Translations under genes and position numbers: made by a program
The notes under the pieces: model-generated
What the model was told of the DNA's origin: nothing
The model's input: only the letters and a program-made list of their open reading frames with translations
Database searches by the model: none
In this document: piece after piece, positions 2,590 to 44,631 of the stretch
Layout: every line of letters starts with the position of its first letter
How positions within the stretch are numbered: the first letter of the stretch is position 1
Virus record (IMG/VR): IMGVR_UViG_3300049893_001592
Coordinates: 1 to 45,322 of that record
Source of the DNA: a virus
DNA length: 45,322 bases
Strand: one strand, 5' to 3'

Positions 2590-2813
2590 CACTTGAACGC
2601 ATGCTCCAGCTTCTCTTAGATTCTGAGAAGGAATGGGGGGACGTTTGGATTGATGGTGAGAGTTGCAAGGCCATTGCTGAGGCCCTACGCGCTGGGCAGG
2701 AATTATCCACTCTAGTCCTCCAAGGCGCGAGCATAGGCGCAAGAGGTGAACGCGATCTATTTGCTACTGCTTGCAAGTTTAAGAGCGCCACGACGAAGGG
2801 AGGTGAGAAATGA
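2586..2813 (+). CDS. Small paralogue 2 of the ALRAGQ family
   Basis: 75 residues, with ATGA overlaps at both ends. N-terminus MTLERMLQLLLDSEKE, then CKAIAEALRAGQEL, matching the signature of the genes on either side. The tail (GGEK) resembles that of the next copy (GEEK). Similarity is clear by eye in the central helix but weak elsewhere, so the duplication is not recent. Function unknown. Confidence 0.72.
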   Translation: MTLERMLQLLLDSEKEWGDVWIDGESCKAIAEALRAGQELSTLVLQGASIGARGERDLFATACKFKSATTKGGEK

Positions 2814-32031: not shown

Positions 32032-33972
32032 TTAAACTACGCCGGCTTGCTGGAGAAGCGCGCCGGTATCTACGGGAGCCGGCATACCTGCTACCTCGGT
32101 AGGAGCTGCGGCAGGCTGCTGAGGCATCTCGTTTGCCATGAGCTGCTCCCGTTCGCGTATGTGCTGGCGGATCAGATCTTGCAGCTCAGGTTCCAGATAC
32201 TTAAACTCGGAAGTTTCCAGATATTGTTTAGCGGCAGCCAGGCGGCCCACATGGTTTTCCATTTCTTTTGGCGCTATATACGTGGGCTTACCGGCTCTGA
32301 AGAACGCGATCATTTCTTCAAACACTTCCATTTGGCGATCGGCCGCCATGTCGTTAATATCGTAGAGGCTTTCCAGCTCATTCAGTTTCAGGTGTTTGAG
32401 GATGGTCTGCATACTGATGCCGGCTTTCTCAAACATTGGCATCATGAGCATGATCGCTTCGCGACGCATGTTCGGGTCAATTGGCAAGCTGGTACCGTAT
32501 TCCGCAATGATATCATAGCCGTCTTTAATGTCGGCGCCTTTGAGCTTGATCGACTCGAAGGCTTTGTCTTTGCCTATGACCTTTACGATGCGCGGCGTGG
32601 TCCAGTACATCTTGACCAGCTCAAGATAGTCCTTGTAGATCTCGCGAATGACGCCCTCGTACTTTTTAAGCAGTCGGCGGTGAATGGCGGTACCGGCCTG
32701 GATGGCCGTCTGCTGCGACACGGCAGACTGCTCGCGCTGCTGGATGCCAAGCATGGAATCGTTAATGCCGTACATATCCTGCAGCTCTTGGCGGTAGCTG
32801 TCGCGGAACTGCCACATATCTGGCATAAGGGCCGGCGGATTCACGAAGCGGATCGAGTTGGCATCCTGCGCGCCGGAGACCTTAATCCAGTCCCAGCTGC
32901 TGTTAGACACATCGTCATCAGCCACGTCGGCCGTGTCGGGTATAACCATGCGCACGACGTTGTGAGCCTGTATGCTGTCTAGCGTGTTGCTGTCGATGCG
33001 GTTTAGCATGTCCTGCACGCGGCTTGCGTATTCAGCCACGGACTTGGCGTACACGCTGCCGGGCACGTCAACAAAGGTCAAGAACTTGTACGGCAGGCCG
33101 GCGTTAGGGTGCTTATTCTTGCAGGGCTTGCCCAAGAAAGTGAAGTCTTTCAAAAAGCATGCATAGCGGCCAACCATGCCATTAACGGGCAGGCCGCGTT
33201 CGGTGTAGTGAAAGATCTCGACGCACGGTTCTTTTTTGGCCGCGTCTTTCTGGCCCATGATAGGATCGTAGGATGCCTCGGGGTCGTACTCGAACTGGTT
33301 CTCTTCAATTTTGTCTTTGTGCTCCGGCCAACGGTAAACCGCCTCTTCAATCGTCATAAGCTCACGCTCAAAGACGTGGCGGATGCTACGAATATCCATG
33401 GCCTTCGGGTCTACCCAAAGGTTAAATATATTGATGTGGCGCACCTCATTGTCGCCCGTCATCTCCAGCTCGCCGCTCTCTTCGTCAAAGTCTTTGATTT
33501 CGCCGGCGTCTTTGTCGTGGTACACCTTGATGCAGCCAATGCCGCACACAAGTGCGTACAGGTTCATCAAGTCCACTTCTTCTGGAATGTCTTTGGTGTC
33601 GCGGGCATGGCGCGCAACGCGATCGGCGGCGTCAGCCTTTTGAGAGTCGGCCGGGTCGGTAGTAGCCGGGCGCACGATCACGCTGGGCGGGTTGGCTGAC
33701 AGTTGGCTGTGGATAAAGCGCGTGTATTTAAAGATGTAGTTGATGCCTATTGCGGAGTCGCCGCTTTCGACGTCGCCGCTAGCCAGCTGCGCCAAGTTCT
33801 CAAATGTTATGTTGGCGGTGCCGGCATTGCGGAAACCCATGTTTCCAGCGTACTGGCGAAGGTTGGCGGCCCAGGTAGCTTCGAAGGCGGCGCGGTAACC
33901 TTTGGCTTCAGCAAAGAGCATTTCCATGCGCTTGCGCCACTCATCCATGGTCCAGCTGACAACTTTAGCCAC
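32032..33972 (-). CDS. Portal protein
   Basis: 646 residues from a GTG start with AAGGAG upstream. Long helical N-terminus, then a region typical of podophage portals (AIGINYIFKYTRFIHSQLSA, NIFNLWVDPKA) and a Gln-rich stretch (QREQSAVSQQTAIQAGTA) where portals have the tunnel-loop region, ending in a Pro/Gln-rich tail. Portals form the dodecameric ring at one capsid vertex through which the terminase pumps DNA. Its place next to the terminase and scaffold genes fits. The sequence itself is diverged, so the exact family is open. Confidence 0.8.
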   Translation of the reverse strand: MAKVVSWTMDEWRKRMEMLFAEAKGYRAAFEATWAANLRQYAGNMGFRNAGTANITFENLAQLASGDVESGDSAIGINYIFKYTRFIHSQLSANPPSVIVRPATTDPADSQKADAADRVARHARDTKDIPEEVDLMNLYALVCGIGCIKVYHDKDAGEIKDFDEESGELEMTGDNEVRHINIFNLWVDPKAMDIRSIRHVFERELMTIEEAVYRWPEHKDKIEENQFEYDPEASYDPIMGQKDAAKKEPCVEIFHYTERGLPVNGMVGRYACFLKDFTFLGKPCKNKHPNAGLPYKFLTFVDVPGSVYAKSVAEYASRVQDMLNRIDSNTLDSIQAHNVVRMVIPDTADVADDDVSNSSWDWIKVSGAQDANSIRFVNPPALMPDMWQFRDSYRQELQDMYGINDSMLGIQQREQSAVSQQTAIQAGTAIHRRLLKKYEGVIREIYKDYLELVKMYWTTPRIVKVIGKDKAFESIKLKGADIKDGYDIIAEYGTSLPIDPNMRREAIMLMMPMFEKAGISMQTILKHLKLNELESLYDINDMAADRQMEVFEEMIAFFRAGKPTYIAPKEMENHVGRLAAAKQYLETSEFKYLEPELQDLIRQHIREREQLMANEMPQQPAAAPTEVAGMPAPVDTGALLQQAGVV

Positions 33973-33981
33973 GGTAGCTCC

Positions 33982-34134
33982 TTAGCGTCTAAGTTTGAGT
34001 TTGATAAGAAGTCGGCGCAGGTCCTCTTCTTTGGCAGCCAGCTCGCGGGCTTTCTGGTTAAGCGCAACCAGCTGTAGGCCGTTAAGGGCAAACACGAAGA
34101 GGCCGAGGTAGAATGCGGCGATCACTGCGTCCAT
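33982..34134 (-). CDS. Small membrane-anchored coiled-coil protein
   Basis: 50 residues: one hydrophobic helix (IAAFYLGLFVFALNGLQLVAL) followed by a charged heptad helix (RELAAKEEDLRRLLIKLKLRR). TGATG overlap with the terminase stop and GAGCTACC before the next gene. An N-terminal signal-anchor followed by a coiled coil is the layout of an inner-membrane spanin-like or holin-associated protein; between terminase and portal it may also be a head-assembly factor. Too short to decide. Confidence 0.55.
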   Translation of the reverse strand: MDAVIAAFYLGLFVFALNGLQLVALNQKARELAAKEEDLRRLLIKLKLRR

Positions 34135-35600
34135 CAGTACCAACCTCGGTTAATCTTTGGCCTTGGAATGCGACCAAAGGTAAGCTTGCGCTTTGTTTTA
34201 TCTTTTGTCGCGGCCGCTGTCTTGCGAGCTTGGTGCTGCATAACCAGCTGCTGTTCCCAGGACATATCGGCAGGGCGCGTCTCGGGCTTTGGTATCTGGT
34301 CGCAGAAATACTGAAGGCAATCAAGGATATGGTAATCGGACGAGCGGACGATCTTGTCCTCACGCGTCTCGGACCACTGGCAGGTGGCAAACTGCTCAAT
34401 GACTGCCTCGCCGGCCCAGTCAGTAATCTTGAGGCGGCCATCATCCAGGCGGTCTTGCAGCTGTTTAATTAACTCTAACTTGCGGTTATTGTTCTTGTTA
34501 AACACGCCGTGGTACACAATCTTTGCCTTGTTGGCTTCTTTGATGAACCACTGCTCGTGCGGATCGCTGATGCGGCGAATGAGGTTGACACCCTCGCTGC
34601 GCTTTTGGAAAGCTTGCAGCAGTTCGGACGCAGAATCGCCTTGCACGTTCTCGGCGCGGATTAGGTACCAGCTGTGGTTCTTGGGACTCTCGGCAAGGAG
34701 GGCGTAACCGGCATAGCCCGCTGCCGCTGGGTCCACGACTTCGACATGTCGCCACGACGGATGGTACCTCTCCGGGTTTTCCATGTGCTGCATCTCGTCA
34801 AAGCGGTACACGCCACGGTCGCCTATGAACCACTCGCCATACAGACGAGCGTTTCGCTCCCCCTCAGGAAGGGCGGAGTAGCGCGCCATCAGCTCTTCTT
34901 CGCGGCCGGCGTAGATCGGGTTGTCAAACATGGCAAACTTGTATTTTTTGCCGTAACGTGGGTCAACCGTCTCGATCTTCTTTTTGATCTCGGGGTTGCG
35001 GATCAGCGGCGTAAAAGTGCAGATAAACCGCCCCTTGGTAGCGATGGTACGCGTCTCAAGTTCGGAGAACAGCGACAGCGATGACGGCATTTCGTCCAGC
35101 CACACCCATTGCGCTACGAAGGCCTGCGAGTTTTTACGGGCGTCGTTTGCGTTATGGTGTGAGATAAACAGAATTTTATTTCCATTCTTACGGTGGCTGA
35201 CCGACTGGAGCACGCCACCTGAGCTGTGGACATGGTACTCGGCCGGGTCAAGATGGGGCTGTATCTTATTGCCCCAAATTTCAGTCTCAAGCTGCTTTGT
35301 CGTTTGACCAAGAATCAGCATGATTAGAGGTCGGTCCCCCCAGACGGCCTTGGTGTCTAGGTATGGATGAGTGTTGGTAAAGATCCAGGCTGCCTCCCGC
35401 CCTGCCAGCATCGTCTTACCTGACTGGTTACCGGCAACCACGTAGCGGGAGTAGAAGGCCTCTATATCACGCAGTACTTCCAGCTGCTTAGCTGTTGGCG
35501 CCGACCCTATGACGTGCGGGTCAAAGCTCTCCTTGCGGGCTAGAGCTTCGCGTCGCTGTAGCGCGGCAGCTAGTAGCTTCTTTTCGACATCGGCGTTCAT
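34134..35600 (-). CDS. terL: Terminase large subunit
   Basis: 488 residues. ATPase domain: Walker A VAGNQSGKT at 55-63, Walker B WVWLDE at 165-170, and the coupling motif TFTP at 195-198. C-terminal RNase H-like nuclease: acidic residues in HVEVVDPAA, IRRISDPHE and SSDYHILD. It cuts concatemeric DNA and pumps it into the procapsid through the portal. Start overlaps the preceding stop as ATGA. The length fits a full enzyme. Confidence 0.92.
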   Translation of the reverse strand: MNADVEKKLLAAALQRREALARKESFDPHVIGSAPTAKQLEVLRDIEAFYSRYVVAGNQSGKTMLAGREAAWIFTNTHPYLDTKAVWGDRPLIMLILGQTTKQLETEIWGNKIQPHLDPAEYHVHSSGGVLQSVSHRKNGNKILFISHHNANDARKNSQAFVAQWVWLDEMPSSLSLFSELETRTIATKGRFICTFTPLIRNPEIKKKIETVDPRYGKKYKFAMFDNPIYAGREEELMARYSALPEGERNARLYGEWFIGDRGVYRFDEMQHMENPERYHPSWRHVEVVDPAAAGYAGYALLAESPKNHSWYLIRAENVQGDSASELLQAFQKRSEGVNLIRRISDPHEQWFIKEANKAKIVYHGVFNKNNNRKLELIKQLQDRLDDGRLKITDWAGEAVIEQFATCQWSETREDKIVRSSDYHILDCLQYFCDQIPKPETRPADMSWEQQLVMQHQARKTAAATKDKTKRKLTFGRIPRPKINRGWY

Positions 35601-41827: not shown

Positions 41828-42118
41828 TTACTCCTGTATAATTAACGCTTTATACCCGGTCTCCATGAGAACGCACAGCGCCTCTTCTTGTTCTGGCTGC
41901 AGACCTTCGCTGATGCCGGACAGCATGAGCAACGCGTGCATTACTTCGTGGCGTATGATTTCGTACGTGGCGTCTTTGCCGTGGCCGTTGTGGACGTAGA
42001 TCGTGCGCTCCTCCGGCACGATGTGTCCCTCGTAGTCTTCTTTACTGAAGTTGCGGTAGCGGATCTTATATTTGGTACCCAGCACGTCAATGCTGCGCGG
42101 GCGTTTCCAGTCTCTCAT
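41828..42118 (-). CDS. Zinc-metallopeptidase-like protein (HEVMH motif)
   Basis: 96 residues with GGAGGCACCG before the ATG, a strong site. HEVMH at 57-61 is preceded by ATYEIIR and followed by ALLMLSGISEGL and an acidic helix (EQEEALC, 76-82), as in compact ImmA/IrrE- or SprT-like zinc proteases with one metal site. Such proteins cleave regulators or repair-linked proteins, but the phage target is unknown. It is the first gene of the long leftward arm, right after the non-coding control region. Confidence 0.68.
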   Translation of the reverse strand: MRDWKRPRSIDVLGTKYKIRYRNFSKEDYEGHIVPEERTIYVHNGHGKDATYEIIRHEVMHALLMLSGISEGLQPEQEEALCVLMETGYKALIIQE

Positions 42119-42184: not shown

Positions 42185-42213
42185 TTGACTTTTCTTTGCG
42201 TATATGATAGGGT
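42185..42213 (+). promoter_or_regulatory. Weak sigma-70-type promoter candidate
   Basis: TTGACT, 17-base spacer, TAGGGT. Its -35 region and first spacer bases (TTGACTTTT.TTT) closely resemble the promoter at 42641-42669, which supports it, but the -10 is poor. It would read rightward into the antisense of the tRNA-like element. Confidence 0.35.
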
Positions 42214-42263
42214 ATATAGGGTTGTGGCGGGTGGGCATATATAACTATAATCATTATATTAGT

Positions 42264-42367
42264 TACGTGCTGAGGGATTCGAACCCTCGTGCGCCCAGCA
42301 TACTGTCTAGTCAGGCCCGCTGTACACTATCCACTAGATAAGGCTTAAGCCGCTCGCCCAAGCACGC
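42264..42367 (-). tRNA. tRNA-like gene with non-standard central region, anticodon not assigned
   Basis: Reading leftward, a 7-bp acceptor (GCGTGCT with AGCACGT, one G-T pair) encloses a perfect T arm (GAGGG, loop TTCGAAT, CCCTC). Behind the acceptor lies a class-II-like D arm (GGC, loop, GCC). The remaining 50 or so bases are too long for a normal tRNA: they contain a second D-arm-like stretch (TATCTAGTGGATAG), a UUAUC/GAUAG hairpin and a CAGC/GCTG hairpin, and no standard 7-base anticodon loop. No 3' CCA is encoded. It may be a tRNA with a large variable arm, an intron, a pseudogene, or a tRNA mimic. Confidence 0.5.
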
Positions 42368-42397
42368 AATTAAAGTGGTCGAGGGGGACGCTACGCC

Positions 42398-42546
42398 CCT
42401 GAGCCGTTACTGTGGGTTTGGGCGGAAGGGCTTTTCATCCTTCCTTTAACCCGCTCAGGTTGTTAGCCTGTACACCCGCTTCCCACGTGTTCACGGCGCT
42501 CTATTGTCTTTCGTGTTGGCCTCCAGGGCATCCCTCTCCACGAAGG
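42398..42546 (-). ncRNA. Structured RNA region: two nested stem-loops between a promoter and the tRNA-like gene
   Basis: Stem-loop 1 (42398-42459): CCTGAGC pairs with GCTCAGG and, on the same strand, GGGTT with AACCC, then GGAAGG with CCTTCC across a nine-base loop; about 18 pairs. Stem-loop 2 (42508-42546): CTTTCGTG with CACGAAGG (one T-G), and AGGG with CCCT inside it. Only frames without gene-like features run through it. A consensus promoter (42596-42624) reads into it leftward. It may be an untranslated leader, an RNA-protein site, or a free RNA. No known RNA family was recognised. Confidence 0.5.
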
Positions 42547-42595
42547 GTTTGGGTCTATCTTTTCTGCCCAGCTACCGACTTCTCGACCTACGCTT

Positions 42596-42624
42596 ACTAT
42601 ATCAACAACCAGCGCCGCTGTCAA
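42596..42624 (-). promoter_or_regulatory. Strong sigma-70-type promoter, leftward
   Basis: TTGACA, 17-base spacer, TATAGT on the leftward strand: a perfect -35 and a -10 with four of six consensus bases plus the key T and A positions. Its start would be near 42589, leading into the structured RNA, the tRNA-like element and then the virion genes. Confidence 0.68.
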
Positions 42625-42640
42625 CCCTAAAAATACACGC

Positions 42641-42669
42641 TTGACTTTTGTTTCGAAATATGGTATTGT
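42641..42669 (+). promoter_or_regulatory. Sigma-70-type promoter, rightward
   Basis: TTGACT, 17-base spacer, TATTGT. An inverted repeat (GTGAG, six bases, CTCAC, 42668-42683) overlaps the -10 and the start site and may be an operator or 5' hairpin. Faces the promoter at 42764-42792, about 95 bases away. Confidence 0.6.
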
Positions 42670-42683
42670 GAGTTTGTACTCAC

Positions 42684-42730
42684 GGCTACACGTTAACATA
42701 TGCGAGGTGTGTGTAGCCTGGGCCGCATAT
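42684..42730. repeat. Interlocked inverted repeats able to form an H-type pseudoknot
   Basis: Stem 1: GGCTACAC at 42684-42691 with GTGTAGCC at 42711-42718 (8 bp). Stem 2: ATATGCG at 42698-42704 with CGCATAT at 42724-42730 (7 bp). Stem 2 begins inside the loop of stem 1 and closes beyond it, the topology of an H-type pseudoknot with loops of 6, 6 and 5 bases. Both RNA strands could form it. It lies between two face-to-face promoters. Confidence 0.6.
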
Positions 42731-42763
42731 TAGTGGAAGGGCAGCATTTTCGCCCAACCTGTC

Positions 42764-42841: not shown

Positions 42842-42868
42842 AATAGCCAGTGGCTGCCCCTGGTTATT
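42842..42868. other. Hairpin across the stop codon of the 42864-43319 gene
   Basis: AATAGCCAG, nine-base loop, CTGGTTATT: nine pairs with one G-T. No U run follows on the leftward strand, so at best a weak terminator or a stability element. Confidence 0.4.
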
Positions 42869-43319
42869 GACCGGCTGATTTAAGCTTCTTACTCTTAGAC
42901 GCAATGTAAGAATCCAGCTCGGCGGCCGACATCTTGTCGAGGTCCTTGCCGATGACCCCTGGCTGCTCTTTAGCTGGGCCGTAACCAGCGTATCTCAATA
43001 GCATTTCGGCCGCGCGCACTTGGTCGGACGTCTTGGCTTCCGCGTCTTTGCCGATCAGGTCACTACCGCTCATCTCCACAATGTCGATCAAACGGCGAAT
43101 GGCCGCTTCGACGCCCGCTTCGAGGAGCGCCTCATTGGCTGATTCATCTAGGAACCACTCGCGGAACTCATTGTTTTTAAGGGAGATTTGCACGTCGAGG
43201 CAGCCGGAAACGCGCGCAATGGCGGCGTCGTCCATGTCGTCGGGCACGAGCGCCTGGTTCTTAGCGATGCGTTGCCAGAACTTCGCCTTGGCTATCTTGT
43301 GCTTGCGGCTGATTTGCAT
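42864..43319 (-). CDS. Helical DNA-binding protein, terminase-small-subunit-like (tentative)
   Basis: 151 residues with AAAGGAAAC before the ATG. Central helices fit small terminase or related phage HTH proteins: DDAAIARVSGCLDVQISLKNN followed by FREWFLDESANEALLEAGVE and a C-terminal helix region DQVRAAEMLLRYAGYGP. Such proteins bind DNA and, with the terminase large subunit, start packaging. It is far from terL (about 7 kb away) and shares an operon with a sigma factor, so a regulatory role is equally open. The start overlaps the sigma gene by 59 bases. Confidence 0.55.
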   Translation of the reverse strand: MQISRKHKIAKAKFWQRIAKNQALVPDDMDDAAIARVSGCLDVQISLKNNEFREWFLDESANEALLEAGVEAAIRRLIDIVEMSGSDLIGKDAEAKTSDQVRAAEMLLRYAGYGPAKEQPGVIGKDLDKMSAAELDSYIASKSKKLKSAGQ

Positions 43320-43821
43320 AAGTTTCCTTTAATTTTGCGATGATGGCGCTGAACAGCTGCGACACGCGCGACTCGCTGACGCCAAAGACGCGGCCGATCT
43401 CTTTGAGGGTCATGCCGCTCAGGTAGTAGCCAGCCATGTCGTAGTCGCGGCCGTCGAGCGTTTCGAGTGCGGCGTAAAGATCCAGCCGCTCCTCGGCGCC
43501 TATCTTGTCGGAATTCTTGTGGAGAACATCAGCCAGCGCCGTAATGTGGCTGTTGAAGGCAGCGACGGCCTCCGCTTTATCGTGGTTGCGCGGCTTGTGG
43601 TATTTGCGGTACCAGTCCATGAAGGCGCTCTTGACGGCGTGATCGGCGAAGGTGCGGAGGGAGGCGCGCTCTGGCTGCCAACGGGGAAGGCGCTCGAGGA
43701 CGGTCACCCACGCCATGGATGCCATGTCTTCACACTCCTGCGGCCCCAGACTCTTCCAACGGCGTAGGTTGGCGCTGATGACTCCTTGCACGACGGTCGT
43801 CTGCTCTTTTGACAGTTTCAT
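43261..43821 (-). CDS. Phage RNA polymerase sigma factor (sigma-70 family, ECF/FliA-like)
   Basis: 186 residues. Region 2-like segment: QECEDMASMAWVTVLERLP, then FADHAVKSAFMDWYRKYHK, with the aromatic and basic residues that bind and melt the -10 element. Region 4: AALETLDGRDYDMAGYYLSG, then MTLKEIGRVFGVSESRVSQLFSAI, a clear helix-turn-helix of the kind that reads -35. No region 1. A phage-encoded sigma would redirect host polymerase to phage promoters. The gene follows a strong host-type promoter at 44279-44307 through two small genes. GGGAG is about ten bases before the ATG, a rather long spacing. Confidence 0.8.
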   Translation of the reverse strand: MKLSKEQTTVVQGVISANLRRWKSLGPQECEDMASMAWVTVLERLPRWQPERASLRTFADHAVKSAFMDWYRKYHKPRNHDKAEAVAAFNSHITALADVLHKNSDKIGAEERLDLYAALETLDGRDYDMAGYYLSGMTLKEIGRVFGVSESRVSQLFSAIIAKLKETYANQPQAQDSQGEVLATHR

Positions 43822-44278: not shown

Positions 44279-44307
44279 ATTGTAAGATAAATGTGACAGA
44301 TTGTCAA
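44279..44307 (-). promoter_or_regulatory. Strong sigma-70-type promoter with two overlapping palindromes
   Basis: TTGACA, 17 bases, TACAAT on the leftward strand. TTACAA-A-TTGTAA covers the -10 and TGACA-ATC-TGTCA covers the -35, both perfect inverted repeats, so a dimeric repressor may act here. It drives the membrane protein, winged-helix and sigma factor genes. Confidence 0.7.
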
Positions 44308-44322: not shown

Positions 44323-44631
44323 AGGATTGTGCCAGGTTATAGGGCACTTTCCGTGCCAAACTCGCCGGATTGTGGGAGGGGAAATTCACTTTCGACACGG
44401 GTACCGAGCCCCACTTCCCCTTTCTTACTGCTGGCCTCAGACGCGTAATATTTGGTGGGCGCGCAAGTGTCCGAATATGGGACGGCGGGGATGGTGTGGG
44501 TGGTCGGCGAGCGTAGCGAGGTAGGGGACAGGGGTAAGTTACCAGCCTGCTTACCGGCCTGCCTCGTAGTACTTAGGCACGCGCCTTGCATACTCTCCGC
44601 CAGCGCAATGCCGCGCTAGGGAGATACGTCC
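44323..44631. other. Intergenic region without a supported gene, with hairpins
   Basis: About 300 bases between the divergent leftward control operon and the rightward small genes. GGTAAG with CTTACC (44533-44538 and 44550-44555) and TGCCT with AGGCA (44560-44564 and 44575-44579) are the clearest hairpins. No convincing promoter for the rightward genes was seen. Two frames of 65 and 84 residues exist but have no gene-like content. Confidence 0.5.

Follow-up and report, generated by a model that had tools for sequence, protein, structure and literature searches.

The CI RNA of phage P4 and the C4 RNA of phages P1 and P7 are immunity RNAs processed by RNase P, and release by that enzyme from a longer transcript, if it occurs here, would be common to them and the locus described below, where no Rfam family matched the candidate RNA. 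GOLLD and ROOL are non-coding RNAs of phages and prophages that lie beside a tRNA (PMC12286853), as does the candidate RNA here (RNA2); they are, however, large and described by conserved covariance models, many of the GOLLD RNAs being longer than 800 nt, and neither family gave a covariance match at the locus in Rfam. HDV-like theta ribozymes adjoin phage tRNAs, lying within 5 nt of them, and have been proposed to process the 3' trailer (PMC10879173). They resemble the present case in the adjacency of a phage RNA to a tRNA; Rfam returned no HDV-family match at the locus, and a home-made scan for theta and HDV-like motifs gave a sense-strand count not above that of the other strand, with none at the tRNA 3' end. 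The put RNA of HK022, ~70 nt long, carries two stem-loops with fixed stems behind an early promoter (PMC9378689); RNA2 likewise has two drawable stem-loops behind a promoter, but its predicted length is 216 nt and its stems are minority folds. Compared with phage tRNA genes (RF00005), the tRNA-like element that follows RNA2 has the acceptor stem, a D-like arm and a perfect T arm, but it differs in having no 7-nt anticodon loop, a variable region of ~39 nt and no ARAGORN call. The literature offered analogies only, and no account of the locus was found in it.

The locus was analyzed in a linear virus record of an uncultured phage (IMGVR_UViG_3300049893_001592, positions 1 to 45,322), the whole 45,322-nucleotide stretch being referred to as the window. 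A long run of minus-strand genes in the window includes those for the portal protein (32032-33972), the large terminase (34134-35600) and a sigma-factor-like protein with Sigma70 regions 2 and 4 (43261-43821). A 745-base gap holds the locus, between the gene for a 151-aa protein (42864-43319) and a small gene (41828-42118) that gave a DA1-like match in a Pfam search and whose product, judging from an HEVMH motif, may be a peptidase. Relatives were sought among viral contigs by means of the portal, terminase, sigma-factor and 151-aa proteins and a repeat found at the locus; only three related contigs were recovered (portal identities of 89, 79 and 79%), and the bacterial genomes searched contained no relative of the phage. 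Two of these relatives, L002 and L004, cover the locus, which was compared in both. The features are collected in Table 1.

Table 1. Predicted features in and around the intergenic locus, listed in minus-strand order.
Feature	Coordinates	Strand	Characteristics
Promoter P1	42764..42792	-	TTGACA-17-TACAAT, 11/12 match; L002 has a promoter of this class in the equivalent position (1658)
RNA1, candidate structured RNA	42667..42757	-	z -2.6 to -3.1; possible H-type pseudoknot; behind P1
Promoter-like repeat, copy A	42641..42669	+	TTGACT-17-TATTGT, reverse, faces into RNA1
Promoter P2	42596..42624	-	TTGACA-17-TATAGT, 11/12 consensus match, TG before -10; L002 counterpart 1863
RNA2, predicted transcript and tRNA-like leader	42374..42589	-	Terminal helix GGUCGAG 42588-42582 / CUCGACC 42383-42377
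Second hairpin	42510..42544	-	MFE fold of isolated piece; pair probability ~0.3 in full transcript
18-pair nested hairpin	42398..42459	-	MFE fold of isolated piece; outer parts 4-14% in full transcript
tRNA-like element	42264..42367	-	Rfam tRNA 32.3 bits; 7-pair acceptor, D-like arm, perfect T arm GAGGGTTCGAATCCCTC
TATAAT box, probable operon promoter	42253..42258	-	TATAATGA in all 3 phages
Conserved C-rich block	42214..42254	-	Aligned in 3 phages; no other copy in window
Promoter-like repeat, copy B	42185..42213	+	TTGACT-17-TAGGGT, reverse, faces into tRNA-like element

Only three intergenic sites in the whole window had an 11/12 match to the sigma-70 consensus, and all three were on the minus strand: one at 44307, belonging to the sigma operon, and P1 and P2 at the locus. 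P2 had been proposed in the sequence-only reading and was found exactly as described; as a sequence element it constitutes good evidence, unlike the hairpins behind it. L002 carries a matching trio in the same order and at comparable spacing (233, 1658 and 1863). The sigma-operon promoter is also present in L004 (1113), where no forward promoter of the P1/P2 class was found ahead of the candidate RNA; a strong promoter close by in the gap, a 12/12 site at 2758, points backwards, and a forward promoter (2793) lies just before the operon. An inverted repeat (TAACGCTCA/TGAGTGTTA, L004 2709-2744) flanks the -10 of the 12/12 promoter in an operator-like manner, and a dyad at L004 2699-2744 that had been considered as a pseudoknot was dropped because of its overlap with a promoter and its operator-like appearance. 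Upstream of the sigma operon, a motif (GTGAATTTCCCC) is common to the three phages (window 44370-44395, L002 140-170, L004 1030-1055).

A tRNA-like gene had been expected beyond the hairpins, and one was recovered at 42367-42264 on the minus strand, where the score exceeded the Rfam RF00005 cut-off of 29 bits; neither this record nor the three related ones gave any other tRNA match. A short loop replaces the anticodon loop, and no anticodon arm with a 7-nt loop and U33 was found, the model leaving a 31-nt insert at the anticodon region. The favored hairpin there has a loop of 3-5 nt, and an alternative 6-pair stem (UCUAGU/ACUAGA) costs ~6 kcal/mol. Because these models provide no usable anticodon arm, the element is unlikely to decode, and its tRNA-like fold may have a role in processing or stability. 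When named phages were searched at the DNA level, tRNA-like matches spanned little beyond the T arm and had chance E-values, and neither RNA1 nor RNA2 had a homologue. Assignment as a tmRNA was rejected, as relaxed ARAGORN calls overlapped and contradicted each other and a span of 104 nt contains both acceptor strands.

The predicted RNA2 can be closed by a terminal helix (GGUCGAG/CUCGACC) that begins at the predicted start site and ends just 5' of the tRNA-like element. This helix dominates the ensemble of the full transcript, with pairing probabilities of 0.98-1.0, and was matched in 259 of 2000 shuffles in an anchored-helix test, which alone is not significant. The covariance search that had been suggested for the region assigned the hairpins to no family: at both curated and permissive thresholds, nothing in Rfam matched RNA2 at or near the gathering score, and the tRNA was the sole match at the locus. 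The hammerhead CUGANGA core was absent from the three intergenic regions, and an HDV-like motif near 42456 was rejected as chance. Elsewhere, in the related contig L008, a type II hammerhead ribozyme (2691-2753, minus strand, 45.2 bits) lies between two leftward genes, just before a start codon. In line with the earlier statement that the region lacks a gene-like frame, neither the 78-aa minus-strand frame nor the 71-aa plus-strand frame crossing it matched a Pfam family.

Two large stem-loops of about 18 and 12 pairs had been drawn by eye over 42398-42546. Both were present in the MFE fold of this 149-nt piece (minus strand), the larger with the full 18 pairs (CCUGAGC/GCUCAGG, GGGUU/AACCC and GGAAGG/CCUUCC) and the second with 10 (UUCGUG/CACGAA and AGGG/CCCU), and the plus-strand text AACCCGCTCAGG ran unbroken along one side, as claimed. 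Their stability, however, was no better than that of shuffled sequences. The z-score was -1.28 for the piece (21 of 200 shuffles folding equally well), -0.80 for 42380-42590 and -1.25 for the predicted transcript (23 of 200 shuffles as good), while sliding 120-nt windows across the region gave values between +0.7 and -1.7, coding sequence giving -0.21 ± 1.09 as background; the plus-strand fold of 42374-42589 was not superior (z -1.24). When the full transcript was folded, the 18-pair hairpin had probabilities of 0.04-0.05 for its outer 7 pairs and 0.12-0.14 for its middle 5, so that the apical GGAAGG/CCUUCC stem (~0.95) was its only firm part. Alternative stems (GCCGU/ACGGC and GUGGG/CCCAC, ~0.78) are incompatible with the middle and outer stems, and forcing the drawn stems cost 2.4 kcal/mol (-70.4 versus -72.8 kcal/mol), a difference within model error that makes the two folds inseparable by calculation. 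The presence of the drawn stems also varied with the point at which the RNA was cut. As modeled, the drawn hairpins are one among several near-equal internal folds of RNA2, not a fixed architecture, and their chance-level stability together with their absence from relatives makes it improbable that they form a specific RNA machine.

The flanking genes of the three phages are 66-91% identical (81 and 66% for the 151-aa protein), whereas no counterpart of RNA2 or of the tRNA-like element exists in L002 or L004, where the sequence could not be aligned. This amounts essentially to the random change in the stems that had been named as a refutation, and it argues against a conserved RNA but leaves room for a phage-specific one. 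At the same place, L002 has an unrelated short candidate RNA behind its second promoter (z -1.71), closed by a 9-pair helix (GUCGCGGUC/GGCCGCGAC) that starts 4 nt from the predicted start and was equalled in 22 of 2000 shuffles in the anchored-helix test, and in L004 the corresponding element, also unrelated, is closed by a long helix at ~2518-2600 (z -2.85). The best-structured piece at the locus was RNA1, just upstream of the hairpin region. Its possible pseudoknot consists of two 8-pair stems, AUAUGCGG (42730-42723) with UCGCAUAU (42705-42698) and GGCUACAC (42718-42711) with GUGUAGCC (42691-42684), and was equalled by 2 of 100 shuffles; a hairpin (GUGAGU/ACUCAC) lies at 42683-42668. Aligned ungapped from the -10 onward, RNA1 and its L002 counterpart matched at 33 of 81 positions (p = 0.0024), and RNA1 may be a small RNA or merely an ancestral promoter region.

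The reading we tentatively prefer, with somewhat less than even confidence, is that the phage has here a fast-evolving accessory locus for non-coding RNA, comprising host promoters, RNA1 and an RNA2 released from the tRNA-like element. Two host sigma-70-type promoters would fire toward the virion operon, P1 yielding RNA1 and P2 yielding an RNA2 of ~220 nt that runs into a tRNA-like element probably unable to decode; RNase P would cut at the 5' end of this element and free RNA2, closed by its terminal helix, so that the tRNA-like fold would serve as a processing or stability device. The RNAs might then act on host or phage. Among the three possibilities raised from sequence alone (operon leader, regulatory RNA, or small RNA cut out beside the tRNA-like element), the last fits best. 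The location of two of the three strong window promoters here, the L002 promoter trio, the tRNA score, the terminal helix with probability near 1, the closing helix in L002, the absence of a coding family, the RNA1 z-score near -3 and the conservation of flanking proteins but not of the RNA all favor this interpretation. It is disfavored by an RNA2 fold equal to shuffles, the shuffle result for the window helix, the lack of a forward promoter in L004, the opposing repeats, the missing terminator, the 22-aa frame described below and the restriction to two relatives, which yields no covariation. Interest in the locus is modest and attaches to the whole of it, not to the hairpins: if the RNAs are made, the phage group would provide a natural collection of non-coding RNAs exchanged at a single genomic position and would employ a tRNA-like fold for processing, not decoding.

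The locus could also contain a neutral spacer: a tRNA gene once served by P2 would have decayed, leaving between them sequence free of constraint, in which it is always possible to draw hairpins. We consider this somewhat unlikely; structure at chance level, a tRNA-like element without an anticodon arm and the lack of any sequence shared with relatives agree with it, but a near-consensus promoter has been retained, the acceptor and T stems that decay would spoil are intact, and the adjoining RNA1 is significantly structured. If the RNAs are not made, the hairpins would stand as a caution that big stem-loops picked out by eye in GC-rich sequence seldom exceed chance. An arrangement of wider scope, which appears unlikely, is a hypervariable RNA cassette (promoter, structured RNA and tRNA- or cloverleaf-like element) bounded by opposing-promoter repeats, its RNA cargo swapped among close relatives and its flanks kept; such wholesale swapping would be similar to that of accessory gene cassettes, except that the cargo is RNA. 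The repeat concerned, close to CATATNCGCAANNAAAAGTCAA, occurs after RNA1 and again after the tRNA-like element in the window, likewise twice in L002 (1805 and 2066) and once in L004 (789), these five copies in three phages scoring 21.7-30.3 against shuffle maxima of ~15. Direct repeats flanking the P2-RNA2-tRNA unit would ease its wholesale replacement, which fits the turnover seen. Read on the opposite strand, each copy consists of TTGACT, 17 bases, in part a TGn, and a TA-rich hexamer, and the repeats could be promoters directed into the RNAs, or else operators or recombination sites; because they face the locus from the other side, the functional strand is uncertain. Were they promoters, RNAs complementary to RNA1 and to RNA2 with the tRNA-like element would be transcribed, giving sense-antisense control. 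The matching positions of the window and L002 copies speak for this scheme, which we nevertheless regard as quite improbable in view of the poor -10 boxes of copy B in the window (TAGGGT) and in L002 (TATTTT), the location of the L004 copy elsewhere, upstream of the sigma operon, and the alternative roles of the repeats.

Translation of short leader peptides is highly improbable. Two AUG frames with purine-rich ribosome sites are visible on the minus strand, one of 22 aa (42531-42463) with a good site, which forms the last part of the 78-aa open frame, and one of 15 aa (42438-42391) inside the apical hairpin, but they are tiny, no counterpart was seen in the relatives and the 78-aa frame has no Pfam family. 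In the 15-aa frame, the start codon lies in the apical loop, and pairing within the GGAAGG/CCUUCC stem occupies the ribosome site. It is also distinctly unlikely that the region serves the virion operon as a long untranslated leader, perhaps acting by RNA-based antitermination like the put RNA. The operon is on the same strand, two stem-loops can be drawn shortly after the promoter and no terminator was found on the minus strand between P2 and the operon, so that read-through from P2 is possible; put RNA, however, is far shorter with two defined stems (PMC9378689), and the intervening tRNA-like element would be cut. The leader proposal is further weakened by the TATAATGA box and the C-rich block (TATATGCCCACCCGCC in the window, beyond the tRNA-like element and the box), which separate the RNA from the first operon gene in all three phages, the box in L004 being part of a near-consensus promoter that lies downstream of that interval. 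Because both elements recur in this way, the virion operon probably has its own promoter, and a leader reading is not needed. A G-quadruplex motif coincides with the conserved block in the window (42210-42235, plus strand) and in L002 (2039-2055, minus strand), and in the L004 block one loop is too long.
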